From Streptomyces sp. NBC_00464 (GTDB lineage Bacteria; Actinomycetota; Actinomycetes; Streptomycetales; Streptomycetaceae), in NCBI RefSeq assembly GCF_036013915.1, contig NZ_CP107899.1, positions 2,666,001 through 2,730,000 on the forward strand: a stretch of DNA of 64,000 nt. The letters run 5' to 3'. The translations under genes were made by a program, and so were the position numbers. The notes under the pieces are model-generated. The model was not told the DNA's origin and ran no database searches. It worked only from the letters and a program-made list of their open reading frames with translations. Of the stretch, positions 48,199 to 62,974 are shown piece after piece; within the stretch, counting starts at the first letter, position 1; every line of letters starts with the position of its first letter.

Positions 48199-49464
48199 TC
48201 AGATCCCGTGGGGCTCCTTGTCCGGTATGGGCAGGGGCCGCTTCTCGATGGCGGCCGCCATCACGTCCGGGAAGAGGTCCGGCGTACAGGCGAAGGCGGG
48301 AGCACCCAGCGCGGAGAGCGCCGCCGCGTGGTCACGGTCGTAGGCGGGCGCGCCCTCGTCGGAAAGGGCGAGCAGGGTCACGAACTGGACTCCGGACGCC
48401 TTCATCGCGGCGACCCGCTTCAGCATCTCGTTGCGGATACCGCCCTCGTAGAGGTCGCTGATGAGCACGACGACCGTGTCCGCGGGGCGGGTGATCCTGG
48501 ACTGGCAGTAGGCCAGCGCCCGGTTGATGTCGGTGCCGCCGCCGAGCTGGGTGCCGAAGAGCACGTCGACGGGGTCGTCGAGCTGGTCGGTGAGGTCGAC
48601 GACCGCCGTGTCGAAGACGACGAGTCTGGTCTGCAGCGAGCGCATCGAGGCAAGGACGGCGCCGAAGACCGAGGCGTACACGACGGAGGCCGCCATCGAG
48701 CCCGACTGGTCGATGCAGAGAATGACGTCCTTCTTCACGGACTGCGCGGCCCGCCCGTAGCCGATGAGCCGCTCGGGGACAATCGTGCCTGCCCCGGCCT
48801 CGCCGGGGAGGGTCAGGTAGTTCTTGAGGTTGGCCCGGATGGTGCGGTCCCAGTCGATGTCGTGGTGCCGGGGTCGCGTGACCTTCGCCGACCGGTCCAG
48901 GGCGCCCGTGAGCGTGGCCCGGGTCCGCGTGGAGAGCTGCTTCTCCAGTTTCTCGACGACCTTGCGCACGACGGCTCTTGCCGTCTCCTTCGTCGTCTCG
49001 GGCATGGCCTTGTTGAGCGAGAGCAGGGTGCCGACAAGATGGACGTCCGCCTCGACGGCCTCCAGCATCTCCGGTTCCAGCAGGAGCGCGGACAGGCCGA
49101 GCCGCTCGATGGCGTCACGCTGCATGACCTGGACGACGGACGTGGGGAAGTACGTACGGATGTCGCCGAGCCAGCGGGCCACGGACGGGGCGGAGGCCCC
49201 GAGCCCGGCCGATCGCCCGCTGCCGCCCCTGCCTCCGGGCCGGCCACCGCTCTCGTACAGCGCGGTCAGCGCGCCGTCCATCGCGGCATCGCGGCCGGTG
49301 AGGGTGCATCCGGTGCTCTCCGCACTGTCCGCACCCAGCACCAGGCGCCACCGCCGCAGCCGTTCCCCGTCGTTCGGGGGGACCTGTGGCGTTGCCGTTG
49401 TTGTCGCTGCCGCGTCTGCTGTCGCTGCCACGTCCACCGCGTCCGTGCCGATTCCTGTCGTCAT
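48199..49464 (-). CDS. VWA-domain protein of the MoxR/DUF5682 module
   Basis: A 421-residue protein with no signal peptide or membrane helix. The C-terminal half is a von Willebrand A domain with a complete MIDAS: ILCIDQSGSMAAS, then a Thr in GGGTDINRAL and Asp in VVLISDLYEGG. The N-terminal half is helical and contains SVARWLGDIRTYFPTSVVQVMQRDAIERLG and LEPEMLEAVEADVHLVGTLLSLNKAMPE. VWA partners of MoxR ATPases typically act with them in metal or cofactor loading or complex remodelling. The start overlaps the DUF5682 stop (ATGA). It is last in a three-gene operon. Confidence 0.88.
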   Translation of the reverse strand: MTTGIGTDAVDVAATADAAATTTATPQVPPNDGERLRRWRLVLGADSAESTGCTLTGRDAAMDGALTALYESGGRPGGRGGSGRSAGLGASAPSVARWLGDIRTYFPTSVVQVMQRDAIERLGLSALLLEPEMLEAVEADVHLVGTLLSLNKAMPETTKETARAVVRKVVEKLEKQLSTRTRATLTGALDRSAKVTRPRHHDIDWDRTIRANLKNYLTLPGEAGAGTIVPERLIGYGRAAQSVKKDVILCIDQSGSMAASVVYASVFGAVLASMRSLQTRLVVFDTAVVDLTDQLDDPVDVLFGTQLGGGTDINRALAYCQSRITRPADTVVVLISDLYEGGIRNEMLKRVAAMKASGVQFVTLLALSDEGAPAYDRDHAAALSALGAPAFACTPDLFPDVMAAAIEKRPLPIPDKEPHGI

Positions 49465-51971
49465 CCCGTTGCCCCCAGCCGTTCCTCGTGGTTGTCGGGT
49501 GTCTCGGCCGTCGGCTCGATCGCCCTCTCCGCCGTCCTCTCCGCCGTCGGCCCGGTCGTCGGCTCGGTCGTCGGCCCGGTCGTCGGCTCGGTCGTCGGCT
49601 CGGTCGTCCTCTCCGCCGTCGGCTCGATGTCCAGGCCCAGCAGCAGGCGCAGCACCGGCACCACCGCGTCCGCGCGCGACCCGTCGAGGACGGGTCCGAA
49701 TCCGGGTGCCGTGGACTCGCGGCCCGGAACCGCTCCGGTTGCCTGGGCCGCGCCGACGGACGGGCCTCGCCGGACGAGTTCGCCCAGCGTGCGCCGCACG
49801 CCCGACTCGTACGCCGAGAAGGTGCGGCGCAGCAGGGGCAGCACATCGGTGAAGGTGTCCGCGGGGACGCCGGTGAGCCAGGAGTCGACCAGAGCGAGCA
49901 GCCGCTCGTCGTGGACCAGGAGCATGCCGCCGCCTGCCGCGCCGCCGACGAAGCCCTCGATCCATGCGGCGGCGTCGGCCGGGGGTGTGCCGGGTGACAG
50001 GGCGAGGCCCATCAGCCGGGCGGCTTCGTCCTGTGCGAGGTGTCCGTCGTCGAGCAGCAGCCGGGCGGCCCGGCCCCGGATCACGCCGGCGACCGCGTCA
50101 CGAACGGCCAGTCGGCGCAGCACGGTTCTCCAGCGCTCGCGCAGCCCGTCCGCGTTCGCCGGCACGGCCCCGGCGAGCAGTCCGATCGCCGTGTGGACGC
50201 CGTCCACCTGACGGCGCAGTGCGGCGGCCCCGTCCGCGTCGAGTCCGGTGCAGGCGGGCGGCAGTCCGATGCAGATCCGCTCCGCGAGCCCGGCCGCCAC
50301 CTCCCCGAGCGCGGCGGTGTCCGTGGCGCGGACGTCCCCGTAGCGCAGGGTGCGGGCCAGGGCCGGCAGGGCGTCGGCGAGGTGGCCGACGTCGGTGTCG
50401 AGCGCTGCGCGGTCGGCGAGGACCCGCATCACGACGGGGAGCGCCTCGGGCAGTCCGGCGAGCAGGCACCGCTCGGCGAGGCCGGTCACCTCGGAGAGCG
50501 CGGTGGCCCCGAGGGCGTCCGCCTCGGCCCGTGAGGTGGCGGCGGAGAGCACGGTGGTGCCCCAGACGCCCGCCTCCGCGACCCGTACGTACAGCTCGGG
50601 CTCCCAGTGCAGCCGCCAGCTCTCCCGGAAGGTGCCGGTGCTCCCCCGGCCGGTGGCGGGTTCGCCCCAGCCGATGCCGAGGAGGCGCAGCCGGTGCAGG
50701 AGCCGGCTGCGTGCCGCGTCGGTGTCCTTGCGGAGGTCGAGCTCCAACTCCCTTTCGGCGGCTTCCGGTTTGAGGCGGAGGGTGCGCTGCTGCCGGTTCA
50801 GGTCGCGCTGCAGCGGAACGGCGGGGGCGGTGTCCGGCACTTCTCCGAGTGTCACGCCGACGATCAGCCGGTCCCGGACGAGGGCGAGCGGTACGTCCGA
50901 GCCCTCGCACATCACGGCGCGGACGGCGTCCGTGGTCTCGCTCAGTCCGGCGAGCGGCCGGCCCCGCATGGCGGCGAGGGTGTCGGCGAGCCGGACCGCC
51001 TCGATGACATGGGCGGAGGACACGAACCGGTCCTCGTCGCGCAGCAGTCCGGCGACCTTGGTCATCCAGCGTGCGACGGGGCGGTCCGGGGCGGTGAAGA
51101 GGTGCTCGTACCAGCCGGGCGAGTCGATCCCGGCCCCGTATCCGCTGTGCCGGGCGAGCCGCTGATGGGTCCAGGGCACCCAGGTCAGCTCGGCCTTGAC
51201 CTTGGGGAGGCCCTTGAGGAGGGCCCGGTCGGCGGTCTGTGTCGTCCTCGCTTCGAGCGCGGGAACATGCCAGGCACCGCAGACCACGGCGAAGGCCCCG
51301 CCGAACTCCTTGCGGGCGGCGCGGAGCTGGATGCGCATGTACGCCTCCCGGACCGCGTCCCTCGGGTGTCCGCCGTCCCCGTACACCTCGCGCAGGGCGG
51401 TCATCGCCTCGCCGAGCGCGGCGAAGGCCGCCGTCGGGTCGTCGGCGGCTGCGGCACCGGGCACGCCGGAGCCGCCGGGGACGCGGTGTTCGACGACGTC
51501 CTCCCACCAGCGCTCGGGGTCGTCGTAGCCCGCCGTCTCGGCCAGCACCCGGATCGGGTCGACGGGAGCGGGCCGGGGCTCGTCGTCCCGCTCTGCGCCT
51601 TCGGCCTGCCGGCTATCCCGCTCCCCCTCCTCCGCCATGGCCAGCGAGTGCGCCGCGGGCAGGTCGATGAAGCGGACCGGGACGCCGTGTGCCAGGGCCC
51701 AGCGGATCGCGACCCATTCGGGCGAGAACGCGGCGAGCGGCCAGAACGCGGCCCGTCCCGGGTCGTCCACCGCGTGGGCGAGCAGCGCGACGGGCGGCCG
51801 CATCTGCTCGTCGGCGGCGAGCGGCAGCAGCGCGTCACCCTCGGGCGGCCCCTCGATGAGCACCGCCTGCGGACGCGCCGCGTCGAGAGCGGCACGGACG
51901 GCGCGGGCGGAACCCGGGCCGTGGTGCCGCACCCCGAGCAGCAGCGGCCCCGACGGGCGCGCGCCCGTCAT
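49461..51971 (-). CDS. DUF5682 family protein
   Basis: An 836-residue soluble protein. The N-terminus has GPLLLGVRHHGPGSARAVRAALDAARPQAVLIEGPPEGDALLPL, the DUF5682 hallmark. The middle has AVVCGAWHVPALEA and several His/Asp-containing segments reminiscent of TraB/ChaN-like folds, though I cannot assign catalysis. The C-terminal 350 residues are helical. The last 60 residues are a low-complexity Thr/Glu/Pro tract from DNA repeats. ATGA overlaps join it to MoxR upstream and VWA downstream. Known only as a family of unknown function associated with MoxR and VWA genes. Confidence 0.82.
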   Translation of the reverse strand: MTGARPSGPLLLGVRHHGPGSARAVRAALDAARPQAVLIEGPPEGDALLPLAADEQMRPPVALLAHAVDDPGRAAFWPLAAFSPEWVAIRWALAHGVPVRFIDLPAAHSLAMAEEGERDSRQAEGAERDDEPRPAPVDPIRVLAETAGYDDPERWWEDVVEHRVPGGSGVPGAAAADDPTAAFAALGEAMTALREVYGDGGHPRDAVREAYMRIQLRAARKEFGGAFAVVCGAWHVPALEARTTQTADRALLKGLPKVKAELTWVPWTHQRLARHSGYGAGIDSPGWYEHLFTAPDRPVARWMTKVAGLLRDEDRFVSSAHVIEAVRLADTLAAMRGRPLAGLSETTDAVRAVMCEGSDVPLALVRDRLIVGVTLGEVPDTAPAVPLQRDLNRQQRTLRLKPEAAERELELDLRKDTDAARSRLLHRLRLLGIGWGEPATGRGSTGTFRESWRLHWEPELYVRVAEAGVWGTTVLSAATSRAEADALGATALSEVTGLAERCLLAGLPEALPVVMRVLADRAALDTDVGHLADALPALARTLRYGDVRATDTAALGEVAAGLAERICIGLPPACTGLDADGAAALRRQVDGVHTAIGLLAGAVPANADGLRERWRTVLRRLAVRDAVAGVIRGRAARLLLDDGHLAQDEAARLMGLALSPGTPPADAAAWIEGFVGGAAGGGMLLVHDERLLALVDSWLTGVPADTFTDVLPLLRRTFSAYESGVRRTLGELVRRGPSVGAAQATGAVPGRESTAPGFGPVLDGSRADAVVPVLRLLLGLDIEPTAERTTEPTTEPTTGPTTEPTTGPTAERTAERAIEPTAETPDNHEERLGATG
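49546..49605. repeat. Five 12-base tandem repeats inside the DUF5682 gene
   Basis: Five copies of GTCGGCTCGGTC (two read GTCGGCCCGGTC), 49546-49605, with diverged units on both sides. On the coding strand they give an in-frame (Thr-Thr-Glu/Gly-Pro)n tract near the C-terminus; four codons per unit means copy number can vary without frameshift. Confidence 0.85.
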
Positions 51972-53107
51972 GCCGAGACCTCACGGCAGGCGCGGTAGAA
52001 GTCCTTCCAGCCGTCCCGCTCGCGCACCACGGTCTCCAGATACTCCTGCCAGACCACGCGGTCGGCAGCCGGATCGCGGACGACCGCGCCGAGGATACCT
52101 GCGGCCACGTCCCCGGGACGGAGTACGCCGTCGCCGAAGTGGGCGGCGAGCGCGAGGCCGTTGGTGACGACGGAGATGGCCTCGGCGGTGGACAGCGTCC
52201 CCGAGGGGGACTTGAGCTTGGTCCGGCCGTCGGTGGTGACCCCGTCGCGCAGTTCGCGGAAGACCGTGACCACCCGCCGGATCTCCGCGAGGCCGTCGGG
52301 CGCGGGCGGCAGGTCGAGCGAGCGCCCGACCTGGTCGACGCGGCGCGAGACGATGTCGACCTCCGCCTCGGGGGTGGCGGGCAGCGGCAGCACCACGGTG
52401 TTGAAGCGGCGGCGCAGCGCGCTGGACAGTTCGTTGACCCCGCGGTCGCGGTCGTTGGCCGTGGCGATGACGTTGAAGCCGCGGACGGCCTGGACCTCCT
52501 GGCCCAGTTCGGGCAGCGGCAGGGTCTTCTCCGACAGGATCGTGATCAGCGAGTCCTGCACATCGGCGGGGATGCGGGTGAGCTCCTCGATCCTGGCGGT
52601 CATGCCCTCGGACATGGCGCGCATCAGAGGGCTGGGCACCAGGGCGTCACGGCTGGGGCCGTGTGCGAGCAGCTGGGCGTAGTTCCATCCGTAGCGGACG
52701 GCCTCCTCCGGTGTGCCCGCCGTGCCCTGGACGAGGAGCGTCGAGTCGCCGCTGACGGCGGCCGCGAGGTGCTCGGACACCCAGGTCTTGGCGGTGCCGG
52801 GGACACCGAGGAGCAGCAGCGCCCGGTCGGTGGCGAGCGTGGTGACGGCGACCTCCACGAGGCGGCGCGGGCCCACGTACTTGGGTGTGATCACCGTGCC
52901 GTCGGGCAGGGCACCGCCGAGCAGATATGTGGCGACGGCCCACGGCGACAGCCGCCAACGCTCGGGCCGCGGACGGTCGTCGGCGGCGGCAAGTGCCTTC
53001 AGCTCGTCGGCGAAGGCGTCCTCGGCATGCGGGCGCAGGACTTCGGCGTTGACGGCTGCGGTGGTCGCGATGGCTGCGGTGGTTGCGGTGGTTGCGGACA
53101 CGGTCAT
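51968..53107 (-). CDS. MoxR-type AAA+ ATPase
   Basis: A 379-residue AAA+ ATPase. Walker A is LLLLGVPGTAKTWVSEHLA near residue 100. The sensor/arginine-finger segment is clear: VRGFNVIATANDRDRGVNELSSALRRRFNTVVLPLPA. The N-terminal 50 residues are an Ala/Thr-rich leader, so translation could begin further in. MoxR ATPases act as chaperones or remodelers for VWA partners, here encoded two genes downstream. Its start faces the SWIM protein gene across about 145 bases. The stop overlaps the DUF5682 start. Confidence 0.9.
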   Translation of the reverse strand: MTVSATTATTAAIATTAAVNAEVLRPHAEDAFADELKALAAADDRPRPERWRLSPWAVATYLLGGALPDGTVITPKYVGPRRLVEVAVTTLATDRALLLLGVPGTAKTWVSEHLAAAVSGDSTLLVQGTAGTPEEAVRYGWNYAQLLAHGPSRDALVPSPLMRAMSEGMTARIEELTRIPADVQDSLITILSEKTLPLPELGQEVQAVRGFNVIATANDRDRGVNELSSALRRRFNTVVLPLPATPEAEVDIVSRRVDQVGRSLDLPPAPDGLAEIRRVVTVFRELRDGVTTDGRTKLKSPSGTLSTAEAISVVTNGLALAAHFGDGVLRPGDVAAGILGAVVRDPAADRVVWQEYLETVVRERDGWKDFYRACREVSA

Positions 53108-53251
53108 GGATCCCCCTCCAGATCGGTCGACCTGATGTGGTTCCCACGGTGCACCATGGCACTGACAATCGACCTTCCCGCAGGTCAGGGCCAGTTGTCA
53201 GTGGCGCGGCCTACCGTCGTTCCCATGCTGCTGACTGACGGGGGAGAACCC

Positions 53252-54634
53252 TTGGGCGCCGCTGCTCCGGCGGCGCGCCGAACGGTGGAGCAGGTCCTGG
53301 CCCTGGCTCCTGACGACGCTTCACGCAAGGCGGGGAACAAGCTGGCTTCGGCCGGTTGGTGGTCGGACACCGGAGAGGACGCCTCGGGTGCGGTCTGGGG
53401 GCTGTGCCGGGGCAGCGGGAGCAAGCCGTACCGGACAGTGATAGACGCCGCCGGGCCCGCGTACAAGTGCAGTTGCCCCAGCCGCAAGTTCCCGTGCAAG
53501 CACGCGCTGGGCCTGCTGCTGCTCCTCGCGTCCGACGGATCGGCGCCGCCCGCCGGCGATCCGCCCGACTGGGCAGACGAATGGCTGGCGGGCCGTCGCG
53601 CCCGCGCCGAGGTCAAGGAGAAGGCGGCGGGCAGCGGTCCGGCGGATCCCGAGGCCGCCCGGCGCCGTGCCGAGCGCCGGGCCGAGCGGATCGACGGCGG
53701 CGCGCAGGAGCTGGAGCAGCGCCTGACCGACCTGCTGCGCGGCGGGCTGGCCGCAGCCGAACAGTCGGGATACGGGCTGTGGGAGGAGACGGCCGCCCGC
53801 ATGGTCGACGCACAGGCGCCCGGTCTGGCGGGCCGGGTGCGGGAGTTGGGGGCGATCGCGGCCTCCGGTCCCGGCTGGCCGGTGCGGCTGCTGGAGGAGT
53901 GCGCGCTGCTGCATCTGCTGGACACGGCGTGGCTGGGTATCGACCGGCTCCCGCGGCCGCTCGCGGCAACGGTCCGCACCCGGGTGGGCCTGGCGGCCAC
54001 CGCGGAGGGGCCGCCGGTCCGCGACCACTGGCTGGTCCTCGCGCAGTACGACACACCCGAGGGAAAGATCGTCACGCGCCGCATCTGGCTGTACGGCAGA
54101 GATTCGGGCCGCACCGCGCTGCTGCTGTCCTTCGGCGCCGCCGGGCGCTCCCCCGGACAGGCACTCCCGGTGGGCGTGACCCTCGAAGCCGAGGTCACAC
54201 CCTATGGGGGAGCCGGGCAGCTACGGGCGGAGCTGGGCCCGCAGTTCGGCCTGCCCGTGCCGACCGGATCACCGCCTCCGGGTGTTCCGGTCACCGGGGC
54301 GATCGCCGCGTACGGCAAGGCGCTGAGCGACGACCCGTGGCTGGACTCCTGGCCGGTGACGCTGCGCCATGTCATACCCGTGCCGTCCGCGGACGGCTGG
54401 CAACTGGCGGACGCGGAGGGCGATGCGGCCCTGCCCGTCGCCGCCGCCGCGCTGTCCCGGCCCGCGCTGTGGAAGCTCGTCGCGCTCTCCGGCGGGCGCC
54501 CGCTCACCGTCTTCGGGGAGTGCGGTCACCGCGGCTTCGACCCGCTCGCCGCCTGGCCGGCCGGAGGCGAGGGCGGCGACGCCGCGACGCCGGATCCGTC
54601 GTCGCGCGCCGCCACGACCGTGCCGCTCATCTGA
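53252..54634 (+). CDS. SWIM zinc-finger protein of the MoxR module
   Basis: A 460-residue protein. The SWIM motif is exact: YKCSCPSRKFPCKHALGLLL (CxCx6CxH near residue 75), predicted to bind zinc and DNA or protein. It follows RRTVEQVLALAPDDASRKAGNKLASAGWW, a family-specific N-terminus. The rest is mainly helical, then a mixed segment with HWLVLAQYDTPEGKIVTRRIWLYG. I chose TTG at 53252 because GGGGGAGA lies immediately ahead; ATGs at 53224 and 53156 are alternatives. It is divergent from MoxR and 19 bases ahead of DUF5691. Confidence 0.85.
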   Translation: MGAAAPAARRTVEQVLALAPDDASRKAGNKLASAGWWSDTGEDASGAVWGLCRGSGSKPYRTVIDAAGPAYKCSCPSRKFPCKHALGLLLLLASDGSAPPAGDPPDWADEWLAGRRARAEVKEKAAGSGPADPEAARRRAERRAERIDGGAQELEQRLTDLLRGGLAAAEQSGYGLWEETAARMVDAQAPGLAGRVRELGAIAASGPGWPVRLLEECALLHLLDTAWLGIDRLPRPLAATVRTRVGLAATAEGPPVRDHWLVLAQYDTPEGKIVTRRIWLYGRDSGRTALLLSFGAAGRSPGQALPVGVTLEAEVTPYGGAGQLRAELGPQFGLPVPTGSPPPGVPVTGAIAAYGKALSDDPWLDSWPVTLRHVIPVPSADGWQLADAEGDAALPVAAAALSRPALWKLVALSGGRPLTVFGECGHRGFDPLAAWPAGGEGGDAATPDPSSRAATTVPLI

Positions 54635-54653
54635 CCCGAGGAGGAGGAGCGCG

Positions 54654-56360
54654 ATGACCCGCACCACCACGACCACGACCATCCCTACGCCCACACCCAC
54701 AAGCGCGACCGCGCCCAGGTCCGGTGCTTCACCCACCGCACCCGCCGGAGGGCCCGTGCCCCCACCGTGGGAGGAACTCGTCACCTCGGCGCTGCTCGGC
54801 ACGGACCGCCGCCCGCCCGGGACGCCGTCCGGCACCGGGCCGGACGGCGCGGCGGCCGCACTGCTGGACGCCGCCGCGCTGCACACCGTGCGGCGCCGTG
54901 CGGGCCTGCTGCCCGCCCCCGCCGCGCCCCGGCCCGATCCCGCGCCCGCCGACCCGCGCCCGGCGTTGCCGGAGGCCGCCCGGAGCCGGCTGACGCAGCT
55001 GCTCGCGGACCGGGCGGCGCCGAACGGTTCGGGCGGCAGGCGCGGCACGGCCCCCGACCTCATGGAGTTGCTCCCGCAGTGGCTCGCCACCGCCAATCTG
55101 CACGGGTACCGGGCGCCGGACGCCGCGTTGCCGCCTCTGCTGGACGCGGCCAGGGCACGAACCGATCTGCGGCCCCAGGCCCTGGCGTTCGCCGGACTGC
55201 GCGGCCTGTGGCTTGCCGGGCTGAACCCCGAGTGGAAGTTCGCGCTGCGCGGCGCGTCCGGCAGTGCGCTGCTGCCCGAGGTGACGGACCGGCAGGCGGT
55301 GGACCGGCTCTGGGAGGAGGGCCTGTTCGCCGAACGCGTCGCTCTGCTGTCCGCCGTACGGGCGCACGACGCGGACGCCGCGCTCGCCCTGCTCGCCACC
55401 ACCTGGTCCACGGAGCGGGCCGAGGACCGGCTGATGTTCATCGACTCGCTGCGCACCGGTCTGTCCGGAACGGATGAGGAGTTCCTGGAGCAGGCCCTCG
55501 CCGACCGCAGCCGCAATGTGCGCGCCACGGCCGCCGAGCTGCTGTCCGCGCTCCCCGAATCGGCGCTGGCCCACCGGATGGCGGCCCGCGCCCTGTCCTG
55601 CGTGAGCCCCGGCCTCACCGGCACAGGACCGTCCGTGGCCGTGGAGGCCCCGCACGAATGCGATGCGGCGATGCAACGGGACGGGGTGGTGGCGCTCCCG
55701 CCGTCCGGGCGGGGCGAACGGTCGTGGTGGCTGGGCCAGCTGGTGGAGTCGTCCCCGCTGTCGGTGTGGCCGACACGGTTCGGCGGCCGCGGCGCCCGGG
55801 AGATCGTCGCGCTGCCCGTGGCCGACGGCTGGAGCGAGGAACTGCACGCCGCCTGGTGCCGGGCGGCGGTGCGCCAGCGCGATCCCGAATGGGCGCGGGC
55901 ACTGCTCGGCGCCCCCTCCGTACCTCCGTCGAACGGCCCCGGTACGGCGTCGCTCGCCGAGCGGTCGAAGCTCCTGGCTGTTCTGCCCGCCGCCGAACGG
56001 GCCGACTGGGTGGCCGGGTTCATCGCGGCCCACGGCCTGTCGGAGGCGTTCCAGCTGCTGGGGGTCTGCCCGACACCGTGGGCGGAGCCGCTCGGGCGGT
56101 CCGTCGTGGACGCCCTCGACATCGCCCGGGACGCGGGCAGCTACCCCTGGAGCTTCAGCGGGGTGATGGGCCTCGCCGAGCGCTGCCTGAACCCTGCCGA
56201 GGCGGACCGGCTGGAGGTCCTCACCACGACACCCGACGAGCCGGCTGACGCCTCACCGGGTGCGAACGGCTACTGGTCCGAGGCGTTCCAGCGCCTGGTC
56301 TCCACCTTGCGGCTGCGCGCGGCGATGGACCTGGAGCTCAGACCGGGCCACCGCCTCTGA
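54654..56360 (+). CDS. DUF5691 family protein
   Basis: A 568-residue soluble protein. After a Thr/Pro-rich leader (about 30 residues) the conserved part begins PPPWEELVTSALLGTDRRPPG. The rest is helical, HEAT-like, with LADRSRNVRATAAELLSALPESALAHRMAARAL and a late segment WAEPLGRSVVDALD. I recall this as DUF5691, found beside SWIM and MoxR/VWA genes. GGAGGAGG precedes the ATG, giving strong translation. Function unknown; a helical-repeat scaffold is my inference. Confidence 0.8.
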   Translation: MTRTTTTTTIPTPTPTSATAPRSGASPTAPAGGPVPPPWEELVTSALLGTDRRPPGTPSGTGPDGAAAALLDAAALHTVRRRAGLLPAPAAPRPDPAPADPRPALPEAARSRLTQLLADRAAPNGSGGRRGTAPDLMELLPQWLATANLHGYRAPDAALPPLLDAARARTDLRPQALAFAGLRGLWLAGLNPEWKFALRGASGSALLPEVTDRQAVDRLWEEGLFAERVALLSAVRAHDADAALALLATTWSTERAEDRLMFIDSLRTGLSGTDEEFLEQALADRSRNVRATAAELLSALPESALAHRMAARALSCVSPGLTGTGPSVAVEAPHECDAAMQRDGVVALPPSGRGERSWWLGQLVESSPLSVWPTRFGGRGAREIVALPVADGWSEELHAAWCRAAVRQRDPEWARALLGAPSVPPSNGPGTASLAERSKLLAVLPAAERADWVAGFIAAHGLSEAFQLLGVCPTPWAEPLGRSVVDALDIARDAGSYPWSFSGVMGLAERCLNPAEADRLEVLTTTPDEPADASPGANGYWSEAFQRLVSTLRLRAAMDLELRPGHRL

Positions 56361-60307: not shown

Positions 60308-62746
60308 CTAGAGCTTCTCGACCGGGGCGTACCGCAGCAGCAGCTTCTTCGGCCGTTCGTCCCCGAAGTCGACCGTGGCCTTGGCCTGGTCCCCGATGCC
60401 CTCGACCGCAGTCACCGTTCCCAGACCGAACTGGTCGTGGGTGACCCGGTCACCGGCCACCAGCGTGATCGTCGGCTTGTCCGAGGTCCGCCGGGTCGCG
60501 AAGCCCGAGGGGCCGGAGCGCGCGCGGGACGCGGAGAGCGACGAGGTGATCCCCGACGTCGGTCCGGCCGGCGCCGCCATCGGGCCCTTGCGCTTCCACT
60601 CCAGGTGCTGGTCCGGGATCTCCTCCAGGAACCGCGACGGCGGGTTGTACGAGGGCTGGCCCCAGGCGCTGCGCATCGCCGCCCGGGTGAGATAGAGCCG
60701 CTCACGGGCGCGGGTGATGCCGACGTAGGCCAGCCGGCGCTCCTCCTCCAGCTCCTTGACCTGGCCCAGCGCCCGCATGTGCGGGAAGACGCCGTCCTCC
60801 ATGCCGGTCAGGAAGACCACGGGGAATTCGAGGCCCTTGGCGGTGTGCAGCGTCATCAGCGTGACGACACCGGAGCCGTCCTCGTCCTCGTCGGGGATCT
60901 GGTCGGCGTCGGCGACGAGCGCGACCTTCTCCAGGAACTCGGCGAGTGTGCCCGCGCCCTCCTCCTCCGCCCGCTCCTGCTCGAATTCGAGGGCGACGGA
61001 GGCAAGCTCCTGGAGGTTCTCGATGCGGGTCTCGTCCTGCGGATCGGTGGACGCCTGGAGCTCGGCGAGATAGCCGGTCCGCTCCATGACGGCCTCCACC
61101 ACGACCGCCGGTCCGGCGCCGGACTCCACGACCGTGCGGAGCTCCTCCATCAGCGTGTTGAACCGCTTCACGGCGTTCGACGAGCGGGCCGCCATGCCGT
61201 ACGCCTCGTCGACGCGGCGCAGCGCCTGCGGGAAGGAGATCTTCTCGCGCATCGACAGGGCGTCGATCATCGCCTCGGCCCGGTCGCCGATGCCCCGCTT
61301 GGGCACGTTGAGGATGCGGCGCAGCGGGACGGTGTCCTCGGGGTTGGAGAGGACCCGGAGGTAGGCCAGGACGTCCCTGACCTCCTTGCGCTCGTAGAAG
61401 CGCACCCCGCCGACGACCTTGTACGGCAGGCCGACGCGGATGAAGATCTCCTCGAAGACACGGGACTGCGCGTTCGTCCGGTAGAAGATCGCCACGTCGC
61501 CGGCCTTGGCGTCGCCCGCGTCGGTCAGCCGGTCGATCTCGTCGGCGACGAACTGCGCCTCGTCGTGCTCGGTGTCCGCGACGTATCCGGTGATCCGGGC
61601 GCCGGAGCCGGCGTTCGTCCAGAGGTTCTTCGGGCGGCGGCTCTCGTTGCGCTCGATGACCGCGTTGGCCGCGGACAGGATCGTCTGCGTGGAGCGGTAG
61701 TTCTGCTCCAGCATGATCGTGGTCGCGTTCGGATAGTCCTCCTCGAACTGGAGGATGTTGCGGATGGTCGCGCCGCGGAAGGCGTAGATCGACTGGTCCG
61801 CGTCACCCACGACGCACAGCTCGGCGGGGGCGTCCTCCGGACCGGCCGGGCCGACCAGCTCCCGTACGAGCGTGTACTGGGCGTGGTTGGTGTCCTGGTA
61901 CTCGTCGACGAGGACGTGGCGGAAGCGGCGGCGGTAGTGCTCGGCGACATCGGGGAACGCCTGGAGCAGGTGCACCGTCGTCATGATGATGTCGTCGAAG
62001 TCCAGGGCGTTGGCCTCGCGCAGCCGGGACTGGTAGAGCGCGTAGGCCTGGGCGAGGGTCTTCTCGAAGCCGTCGGCGGCCTGTCCGGCGAAGGTCTCCT
62101 CGTCGATCAGCTCGTTCTTCAGGTTCGAGACCTTCGCCGTGAACGACTTCGGCGGGAAGCGCTTCGGGTCGAGGTCGAGATCGCGGCAGACCAGGGCCAT
62201 GAGGCGCTTGGAGTCGGCGGCGTCGTAGATCGAGAACGAGGAGGTGAAGCTGAGCCGCTTCGACTCGCGGCGCAGGATCCGTACGCACGCGCTGTGGAAG
62301 GTCATGACCCACATGGCGTTGGCCCGCGGTCCGACGAGCTGCTCGACGCGCTCCTTCATCTCGCCGGCGGCCTTGTTGGTGAAGGTGATCGCCAGGATCT
62401 GGCCCGGGTGCACCCCGCGCTCGGCCAGCAGATGGGCGATGCGGTGGGTCAGCACGCGGGTCTTGCCCGAACCGGCACCGGCGACGATGAGCAGCGGGGA
62501 CCCGGCGTGCACGACGGCTGCGCGCTGCTCGGTGTTCAGCCCGTCGAGCAGCGCGGCGGCGTCGATGACCGGGCGGTGGGCCCCGTCGCGGTAGTACGCG
62601 TCGCGGGGCGGCGGGGGCCCGTCGAACACGCCCGCGAAGAGGTCCTCCGGCACCGCTTCGGGTGCGGAGTCCTCGGGGGGCGGCGGGGGCCCTTCCTCCG
62701 TGTGCTGGAGGCCGGCCAGGAAACTGTCGTCAAAGAGGCTGCTCAT
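60308..62746 (-). CDS. pcrA: ATP-dependent DNA helicase PcrA/UvrD
   Basis: An 812-residue superfamily 1A helicase that unwinds DNA 3' to 5' in repair and replication restart. After an 68-residue acidic, Pro-rich leader, LLDGLNTEQRAAV (Q motif) and Walker A AGAGSGKTRVLTHRI follow. Other motifs: TFTNKAAGEM (Ia), VDEYQDTN (II), GDADQSIYAFRGA (III), LEQNYRST (IV), TAKGLEFPVV (V) and VGITRARERLYL (VI). The C-terminal 60 residues are a Tudor-like RNA-polymerase-binding tail (VTHDQFGLGTVTAVEG). Monocistronic by context. Confidence 0.96.
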   Translation of the reverse strand: MSSLFDDSFLAGLQHTEEGPPPPPEDSAPEAVPEDLFAGVFDGPPPPRDAYYRDGAHRPVIDAAALLDGLNTEQRAAVVHAGSPLLIVAGAGSGKTRVLTHRIAHLLAERGVHPGQILAITFTNKAAGEMKERVEQLVGPRANAMWVMTFHSACVRILRRESKRLSFTSSFSIYDAADSKRLMALVCRDLDLDPKRFPPKSFTAKVSNLKNELIDEETFAGQAADGFEKTLAQAYALYQSRLREANALDFDDIIMTTVHLLQAFPDVAEHYRRRFRHVLVDEYQDTNHAQYTLVRELVGPAGPEDAPAELCVVGDADQSIYAFRGATIRNILQFEEDYPNATTIMLEQNYRSTQTILSAANAVIERNESRRPKNLWTNAGSGARITGYVADTEHDEAQFVADEIDRLTDAGDAKAGDVAIFYRTNAQSRVFEEIFIRVGLPYKVVGGVRFYERKEVRDVLAYLRVLSNPEDTVPLRRILNVPKRGIGDRAEAMIDALSMREKISFPQALRRVDEAYGMAARSSNAVKRFNTLMEELRTVVESGAGPAVVVEAVMERTGYLAELQASTDPQDETRIENLQELASVALEFEQERAEEEGAGTLAEFLEKVALVADADQIPDEDEDGSGVVTLMTLHTAKGLEFPVVFLTGMEDGVFPHMRALGQVKELEEERRLAYVGITRARERLYLTRAAMRSAWGQPSYNPPSRFLEEIPDQHLEWKRKGPMAAPAGPTSGITSSLSASRARSGPSGFATRRTSDKPTITLVAGDRVTHDQFGLGTVTAVEGIGDQAKATVDFGDERPKKLLLRYAPVEKL

Positions 62747-62974
62747 CGCTGTCCGAGTCTAGGGCGCCGCACTGACACTCCGGGCCCGAGTGATGAAGCA
62801 CGCACCGGCAGGCGGGCACACAGAGCGAGCAGGGGAACGCGCGGCGTGGGGGAAGCCCGGGTCCACCTGCCCCGCAGCACCCCAATTCGCCGAGGTCACG
62901 AAAATGTATCGGGCATATCGAACATCAACCTTCACAGCGGCACCATGAGTTGGCTAGCGTGCTCGTTCGGGCGG

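Follow-up and report, generated by a model that had tools for sequence, protein, structure and literature searches.

A five-gene MoxR–VWA–DUF5682 module behind DNA-damage-type promoters in streptomycetes

Introduction

What does a MoxR ATPase do when it is encoded in one compact locus with a von Willebrand factor A (VWA) protein and two families of unknown function, and when is such a locus switched on? These questions are raised by five genes, for VWA, DUF5682, MoxR, SWIM and DUF5691 proteins, at positions 48199–56360 of a 64,000-nt stretch (the window, meaning the whole stretch analysed) of the 8.96 Mb genome of Streptomyces sp. NBC_00464. The five had been described as a module in an earlier note made from the sequence, and all were recovered there by Pfam (VWA_CoxE 203.5 bits, DUF5682 992.1, AAA_5/MoxR 131.6, DUF5691 583.3, and SWIM 26.1 for a cut-off of 19.6). 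In known MoxR–VWA pairs, the VWA protein grips a client peptide that MoxR remodels, and several characterized pairs assemble or mature a client (PMC7159879; this and the other papers are cited for the available parts of their text). The reading favoured here, with somewhat better than even confidence, is that the module is a single DNA-damage-inducible MoxR–VWA machine of streptomycetes and part of the other actinobacteria, which would load or remodel a putative hydrolase.

On this reading, DUF5682 and DUF5691, both Pfam families of unknown function, gain a concrete place in a MoxR machine that occurs in at least six phyla and lies behind damage promoters in streptomycetes. This place points to a role in surviving damaged or over-twisted DNA, and the role of YehL-type MoxR proteins becomes directly testable in Streptomyces coelicolor and Escherichia coli. 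In the open literature searched, no paper naming DUF5682 or DUF5691, none on a SWIM zinc finger together with MoxR and no function of the module was found, while two papers were listed for two or more of yehL, yehM, yehP and yehQ.

Conservation of the five genes as one unit

The five genes are real and, judged by their conservation, form one unit. Gene contents were counted in the best 80 loci of at least 513 confirmed DUF5682 relatives in named genomes, a sample biased to the type of the window (type 1, see below), since selection favoured the closest matches to a sequence of this type. All five genes occur in 70 of these loci, distributed over six phyla (Actinomycetota 46, Bacteroidota 13, Cyanobacteriota 4, Planctomycetota 4, Pseudomonadota 2 and Armatimonadota 1). 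Phyla follow the titles of the sequence records, 14 loci being labelled by phylum in the MoxR tree as well. The order SWIM–DUF5691–MoxR–DUF5682–VWA on a single strand is kept in 63 of the 70, while the SWIM–DUF5691 pair is flipped in six loci, from streptomycetes, and VWA has moved in one; of all 80 loci, 76 have the VWA gene, although L141 has it inverted and displaced. In ten loci the set is incomplete. Contig ends truncate six of these (L080, L112, L139, L142, L149 and L153), and L147 sits on a 7.2 kb contig where DUF5691 is preceded by 1.5 kb and DUF5682 followed by 0.8 kb, so that the missing genes would hardly fit, if at all. The cyanobacterial loci L079 and L083 have DUF5682 separate from the rest, with DUF5691 and a VWA_CoxE protein elsewhere in both genomes (MoxR was not searched for), a natural case of module parts retained without linkage. 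The acidobacterial locus L087 has no SWIM gene beside DUF5682; a SWIM relative was found elsewhere in two of three genomes searched, the third having DUF5691 at a contig end.

At the level of genomes (counts uncorrected for shared ancestry), DUF5682 was found in 19 of 246 Actinomycetota and DUF5691 above the cut-off in 17, all among those 19 and with the two matches 1.2–3.3 kb apart (Fisher P = 2e-24, a value that ignores phylogeny); three more DUF5691 matches, below the cut-off, fall in genomes without DUF5682. Of 150 genomes of the genus, 143 have DUF5691 and 146 have DUF5682. The streptomycete flanks are constant, with a sucC-like neighbour in eight and a B12-binding neighbour in six of ten named loci, the others ending at a contig edge. 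No sixth gene recurs across the phyla, the larger clusters of neighbours being confined to particular clades or made up of commonplace families, ABC transporter ATPases for example. Single-frame fusions, of SWIM with DUF5691 in 10 of the 80 loci and of DUF5682 with VWA in three paralogous modules (L004, L063 and L069), suggest that the parts fall into two groups, or sub-complexes. The conserved gene order, the fusions and the joint occurrence of the genes speak strongly for the view of the earlier note that they form ‘one machine’.

The same note had called the module possibly ‘stress- or conflict-related’. An anti-phage or conflict function is suggested by the likeness to the vWA–MoxR ternary systems, which likewise combine MoxR, vWA and further operon partners and are patchy across phyla (PMC7159879), and by the fact that WYL-type regulators also serve phage defence (PMC10693628). 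In the ternary systems, however, the third component is VMAP, iSTAND, FtsH or a beta-propeller and effector displacement is typical (PMC7159879), whereas Pfam finds none of these four components in the five window proteins, the bpMoxR match stays below the cut-off (22.3 of 27), and none of the five proteins was matched by PADLOC models at E up to 0.01. Nor was repeated effector displacement seen, the window module having a single gene set without variable effectors and the composition being constant in 70 of 80 loci. Pattern matches in viral contigs numbered 24, with no confirmed relative among them, the module is near-universal in the genus, and the streptomycete flanks are the same as far as contigs reach. 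A conflict system is consequently very improbable, whereas the stress part of the suggestion is supported and, for streptomycetes at least, may be narrowed down to regulation of the DNA-damage type.

Damage-type promoters of the module

Alignment of the divergent gap from eight streptomycetes revealed two outward-pointing TTGTCAGTG elements. The RecA-NDp promoter is said to have the consensus TTGTCRGTG-N8-TANNNT, attributed to Gamulin in 2004. This consensus served as the strict pattern and was fixed after the streptomycete alignment had shown TTGTCAGTG and before other loci and the genome were scanned. RecA-NDp is the promoter of the actinobacterial DNA-damage response, of the PafBC type (PMC8223512, PMC6789036, PMC5087735). 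The window element facing SWIM matches the pattern exactly and that facing MoxR has one mismatch (Table 1). Both were present in all 13 streptomycete modules checked; on the SWIM side, 12 elements match exactly and that of L113 deviates by one base. The MoxR-side copy that the pattern search gave for L139 differs from the copy in the alignment. An insertion of several hundred bases, apparently an additional small gene, sets the two divergent elements apart in L105 and L139. What is new, as read from these alignments, is a divergent promoter bearing two outward RecA-NDp-type elements.

A scan of the whole genome gave 23 sites of the strict motif, and a reversed-pattern control gave none. Judged by the first downstream gene, nine sites precede repair, replication or thymidylate genes, namely those for RecA, UvrB, RuvC, uracil-DNA glycosylase, the exonuclease VII large subunit, DNA polymerase III beta, O6-methylguanine methyltransferase, ThyX and an Exo_endo_phos (Pfam) enzyme that looks like exonuclease III. 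Three further sites head the genome's three MoxR–VWA–DUF5682 modules, where ∼0.003 sites are expected per 2 kb and strand; the motif lies 7 nt before SWIM in the window module, ∼90 nt before a DUF4132 gene in the type 2 module and ∼20 nt before a small SWIM-like gene in the type 3 module. The remaining 11 sites (one of them, L196, not scanned) stand before other or unknown genes. The module thus shares its motif with recA, uvrB and ruvC of the same genome, although it is not named among the RecA-NDp/PafBC regulon members in the available parts of the three papers on that response (PMC8223512, PMC6789036, PMC5087735).

These promoters also bear on a more modest explanation, in which MoxR and VWA would only insert a metal or cofactor into DUF5682 or an unlinked enzyme, like CoxD–CoxE, the link with DNA damage being incidental. 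VWA_CoxE is indeed the best Pfam match of the VWA protein, assembly or maturation of a client is what several characterized pairs perform (PMC7159879), and near-universal occurrence in the genus fits housekeeping. No other enzyme, however, regularly stands beside the module across phyla, and all three modules of the genome lie behind damage-type promoters; we regard such pure maturation as unlikely.

Among 47 named actinobacterial loci in which the start of SWIM is covered, the strict motif lies upstream of SWIM in ten, 11 strict sites being present in all 1.98 Mb on both strands; two of the ten lie outside the streptomycetes (Nocardiopsis L143 and Streptosporangium L146). A loose form, TGTC-N12-TANNNT, lies no more than 100 nt from the first SWIM codon matched in 28 of the 47 loci, 19 of the 38 non-streptomycete loci included. 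For comparison, it was seen in 52 of 23,500 windows taken at random and, with 130-nt windows, at 6 of 345 other genes. A version with a mistaken N13 spacer had found none of the 47. The N12 pattern was chosen after viewing the same data, so its P value is optimistic. Damage-type promoter control, as judged from these motifs, is clear in streptomycetes and only partial elsewhere.

The sco4804 locus of Streptomyces coelicolor

A transposon insertion in S. coelicolor sco4804 was obtained from a topA reporter screen (PMC8120823). This gene was assigned to DUF5682 by length, mass and synteny: SCO4804 has 815 aa and 86.04 kDa (105.57 Da per residue), and the 120 Streptomyces DUF5682 proteins listed have 783–880 aa with a mean of 105.60 Da per residue, whereas Streptomyces SWIM (446–532 aa) and DUF5691 (530–598 aa) proteins are far shorter. 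SCO4800, an isobutyryl-CoA mutase, and SCO4808/4809, succinyl-CoA synthase subunits (PMC6629963, PMC8981147), are the same flanks as those of the window module. We infer on the same grounds that sco4803 encodes MoxR and sco4805 VWA.

According to the available text of PMC8120823, disruption of sco4804 lowers the topA transcript to ∼70% and TopA to ∼50%, with gyrB also lower, its overexpression raises topA promoter activity, and depletion of TopA raises sco4804 and adjacent genes ∼eightfold, a response read there as supercoiling-dependent; DNA-binding regions were moreover predicted in SCO4804. All this speaks for a topology regulator, that is, for DUF5682 and its neighbour activating topA and gyrB transcription upon negative supercoiling. 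Against it, the insertion was polar on sco4805 and left reporter-plasmid supercoiling unchanged (PMC8120823), at E 0.001 Pfam assigns a DNA-binding domain to neither DUF5682 nor VWA, and the same machine is spread over distant phyla. The induction could equally stem from DNA damage in the TopA-depleted strain, acting through the RecA-NDp elements. A direct topA transcription factor is unlikely given the lack of a Pfam DNA-binding domain in DUF5682 and the spread over phyla, and we judge topology regulation as a whole quite improbable. A damage-inducible machine offers another reading of why the sco4804 transposon emerged from a topA screen.

Conserved residues and the putative hydrolase

MoxR and VWA keep the residues of working MoxR–VWA pairs. 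In at least 97% of 77 sequences, MoxR retains Walker A (G101-x-P-G-T-A-K107) and R233/R234, either of which may be the arginine finger by our own reading, and VWA retains its MIDAS motif (Table 1). The Walker B region of MoxR, R-I-E-E-L-T-R, has Glu (E174-E175) where Asp is usual, with R172, E174, E175, L176, T177 and R178 conserved to the same extent. The SWIM zinc finger keeps CxC...CxH. Profile searches of the PDB with DUF5691 and SWIM gave nothing significant, DUF5691 touching alphaRep-type helical repeats only at E 0.12–0.23.

The DUF5682 residues given in Table 1 are invariant in 78 type-1 sequences, and equally so in sets of 14 and 19 sequences covering all three types. Enzymes of the TIKI type use two His, two Glu and one Arg (PMC6254334), and DUF5682 shares with the TIKI/TraB/ChaN/erythromycin-esterase superfamily described there an N-terminal His, a Glu ∼24 residues on and an Arg ∼27 residues before a second His in G-x-x-H. 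It differs in lacking the E-x-H pair of RRSP (V14/R15 precede H16/H17) and in having a large C-terminal region. Its N-terminus aligns co-linearly with seven TraB-family proteins at a score of 32.2, compared with at most 19.0 in 200 column shuffles, 14.2 on reversal, and 19.8 and 15.4 for the unrelated DUF5691 and SWIM profiles. The full co-linear alignment is obtained only at the looser mact of 0.05; unforced local alignment aligns only the C-terminal R...GxxH stretch, and a global comparison over a longer stretch failed. Searches with PF01963 and PF04187 for more family members yielded one genome each (of 100 and of 98, respectively). DUF5682 may be called a putative TraB/TIKI-like hydrolase, the profile support being modest.

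A bolder variant would make DUF5682 a protease and the module a repair machine, powered by ATP, for removing proteins lodged on DNA, for example trapped topoisomerases or other DNA–protein crosslinks: MoxR–VWA would unfold or present the obstacle, DUF5682 would cut it and SWIM–DUF5691 would target the DNA side. If true, the module would work like eukaryotic p97 with SPRTN, though unrelated to them, in many phyla and with a sister version in E. coli K-12; we consider it distinctly unlikely.

Sister modules and the E. coli yeh genes

In the MoxR tree, three module types each lie on their own side of a branch, the window module belonging to type 1. Type 2, in which DUF5682 is often fused to VWA, includes E. 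coli yehL-M-P-Q, and in both E. coli and the genome studied here it is accompanied by a DUF4132 protein; type 3 has the order VWA, MoxR, DUF5682. All three types occur in the window's genome. Its second module (L004, G000:C1:703000-722000) consists of a DUF4132 protein, MoxR, a 1322-aa DUF5682::VWA protein and a SWIM-like CGC..C.H protein, and its third (L169, G000:C1:7538000-7557000) of a small CSTNNNRPCGG...C.H zinc-finger-like protein followed by VWA, MoxR and DUF5682. A SWIM-like zinc-binding pattern was seen, at the level of regular expressions, in each of six type 2 and 3 loci inspected (four type 3 and two type 2, chosen for bearing the strict promoter motif). MoxR, VWA, DUF5682 and a SWIM-like protein therefore probably make up the core common to all types, and DUF5691 would be peculiar to type 1.

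The window MoxR is nearer to YehL (E 3e-75) than to RavA (E 0.15) or to a MoxR proper of its own genome (L166, E 5e-4; L165 was left out), and the VWA gene adjoins the MoxR–DUF5682 pair as in YehL-type MoxR–VWA systems. The YehL subfamily of MoxR ATPases was named in PMC3893208; YehL itself is of type 2 in the tree, whereas the window MoxR groups with type 1, apart from types 2 and 3. In E. coli K-12, yehL-yehM-yehP-yehQ (with yehI upstream) unite MoxR, DUF5682, VWA and SWIM, the first three in the window's order and with identities of 39% (MoxR), 35% (VWA) and 27% (DUF5682). The E. coli region differs in having no DUF5691 match, the DUF4132 protein YehI nearby and no damage promoter found, and YehQ can be aligned with the SWIM protein of the module solely in the zinc-finger region (E 0.28). 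Since yehL-M-P-Q are already annotated, the parts of the module are not new. ‘Undescribed’, as the earlier note had it, is therefore half right for a locus with annotated E. coli counterparts, a MoxR of a named subfamily and an S. coelicolor version known from a topA screen; it holds in that the machine as such was not recognized in the available parts of the report on that screen (PMC8120823).

How the module may work

The favoured reading, a damage-inducible machine acting on DUF5682, may be set out as follows. Promoters of the RecA-NDp (PafBC) type, which we expect to respond to DNA damage as they do elsewhere, would switch on both arms of the module. Driven by ATP, MoxR hexamers, with VWA gripping a client peptide through its MIDAS motif, would then load, metallate or remodel DUF5682, which we take as the likely client and effector. 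A second sub-complex, made of the SWIM zinc finger and DUF5691, would guide the enzyme to its target where DNA is damaged or under topological stress. Other phyla would regulate the same machine differently.

Several observations weigh against this reading, first as regards control by damage. An initial search had suggested that the Mycobacterium smegmatis PafBC motif is not conserved in Streptomyces venezuelae (PMC9380542, in the part available). The loose element is absent from 19 of the 47 named actinobacterial loci and from all 24 loci of other phyla. Nine further type-1 modules from actinobacteria other than streptomycetes (L054–L062), which had no share in the choice of the pattern, all lack the strict motif, and one of eight has the loose one (L054 not being informative); the reading therefore covers streptomycetes but only some of the other actinobacteria. 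The fetched paralogous regions carry the strict motif in two of five type 2 and four of five type 3 cases, and the 22 kb yeh region of E. coli contains no exact CTGT-N8-ACAG (SOS) box. As regards the enzyme, HHalign gives the TraB/TIKI link a probability of only 22%, DUF5682 shows no similarity to the single protein YbaP of E. coli, the link appearing only in family-to-family comparison, and PDB profile searches with DUF5682 and its N-terminus gave no match. The mapping of sco4804 to DUF5682, finally, is drawn from length, mass and synteny.

Layout of the locus

The coordinates of the module are collected in Table 1; its flanks in the window are a succinyl-CoA ligase (sucC) gene and a gene for a B12-binding mutase subunit. 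Overlaps of 4 nt between MoxR and DUF5682 (51968–51971) and between DUF5682 and VWA (49461–49464) make the translational coupling proposed in the earlier note plausible. VWA probably starts only at ATG 49464, though the open frame extends to 49965. On the opposite strand, SWIM and DUF5691 are separated by 19 nt. The most likely SWIM start, by comparison of N-termini, is ATG 53225, which is shared by 17 of 20 relatives, the other three starting eight codons earlier. With this start, the divergent gap measures 117 nt (53108–53224) and not the 145 first proposed, and because the ATG follows the promoter element so closely, the SWIM mRNA is probably leaderless.

Table 1. Coordinates of the module parts and promoter elements in the window
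Feature	Position	Strand	Remarks
VWA (CoxE-type), 421 aa	48199..49464	−	Intact MIDAS D252-x-S-G-S, T311, D337
DUF5682 protein, 836 aa	49461..51971	−	Invariant H16, H17, E40, D103, R208, E209, H235
DUF5682 N-terminal part (∼residues 10–260), resembling TraB/TIKI-type hydrolase core	51192..51944	−	Profile comparison, score 32.2; HHalign probability only 22%
MoxR AAA+ ATPase, YehL kind, 379 aa	51968..53107	−	Pfam, alignment and tree
RecA-NDp-like element towards MoxR, TTGTCAGTG-N8-CACCGT	53146..53168	−	One mismatch
Strict RecA-NDp element towards SWIM, TTGTCAGTG-N8-TACCGT	53195..53217	+	Exact match
SWIM zinc-finger protein, 469 aa from ATG 53225	53225..54634	+	Alternative start at ATG 53156 or 53135 possible
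DUF5691 protein, 568 aa, possibly helical repeats (weak)	54654..56360	+	Pfam

Further genes behind the motif

Beyond the module, the sole other window site with at most one mismatch (0.08 expected by chance) lies at 62756–62778(−), before a UvrD/PcrA helicase gene (60311–62746, minus strand) that is likely to be a further member of the damage regulon. Elsewhere in the genome, strict motifs precede four genes of unknown role, encoding a DUF1877 protein (L183), an unmatched 386-aa protein (L186), a Uma2-type putative nuclease (L187) and a DUF4253 protein (L191), which are candidates for new damage-response genes. At G000:C1:6063375-6065499 (L194/L195), two strict motifs ∼2 kb apart face away from each other, one before the gene for O6-methylguanine methyltransferase and the other before uvrB.

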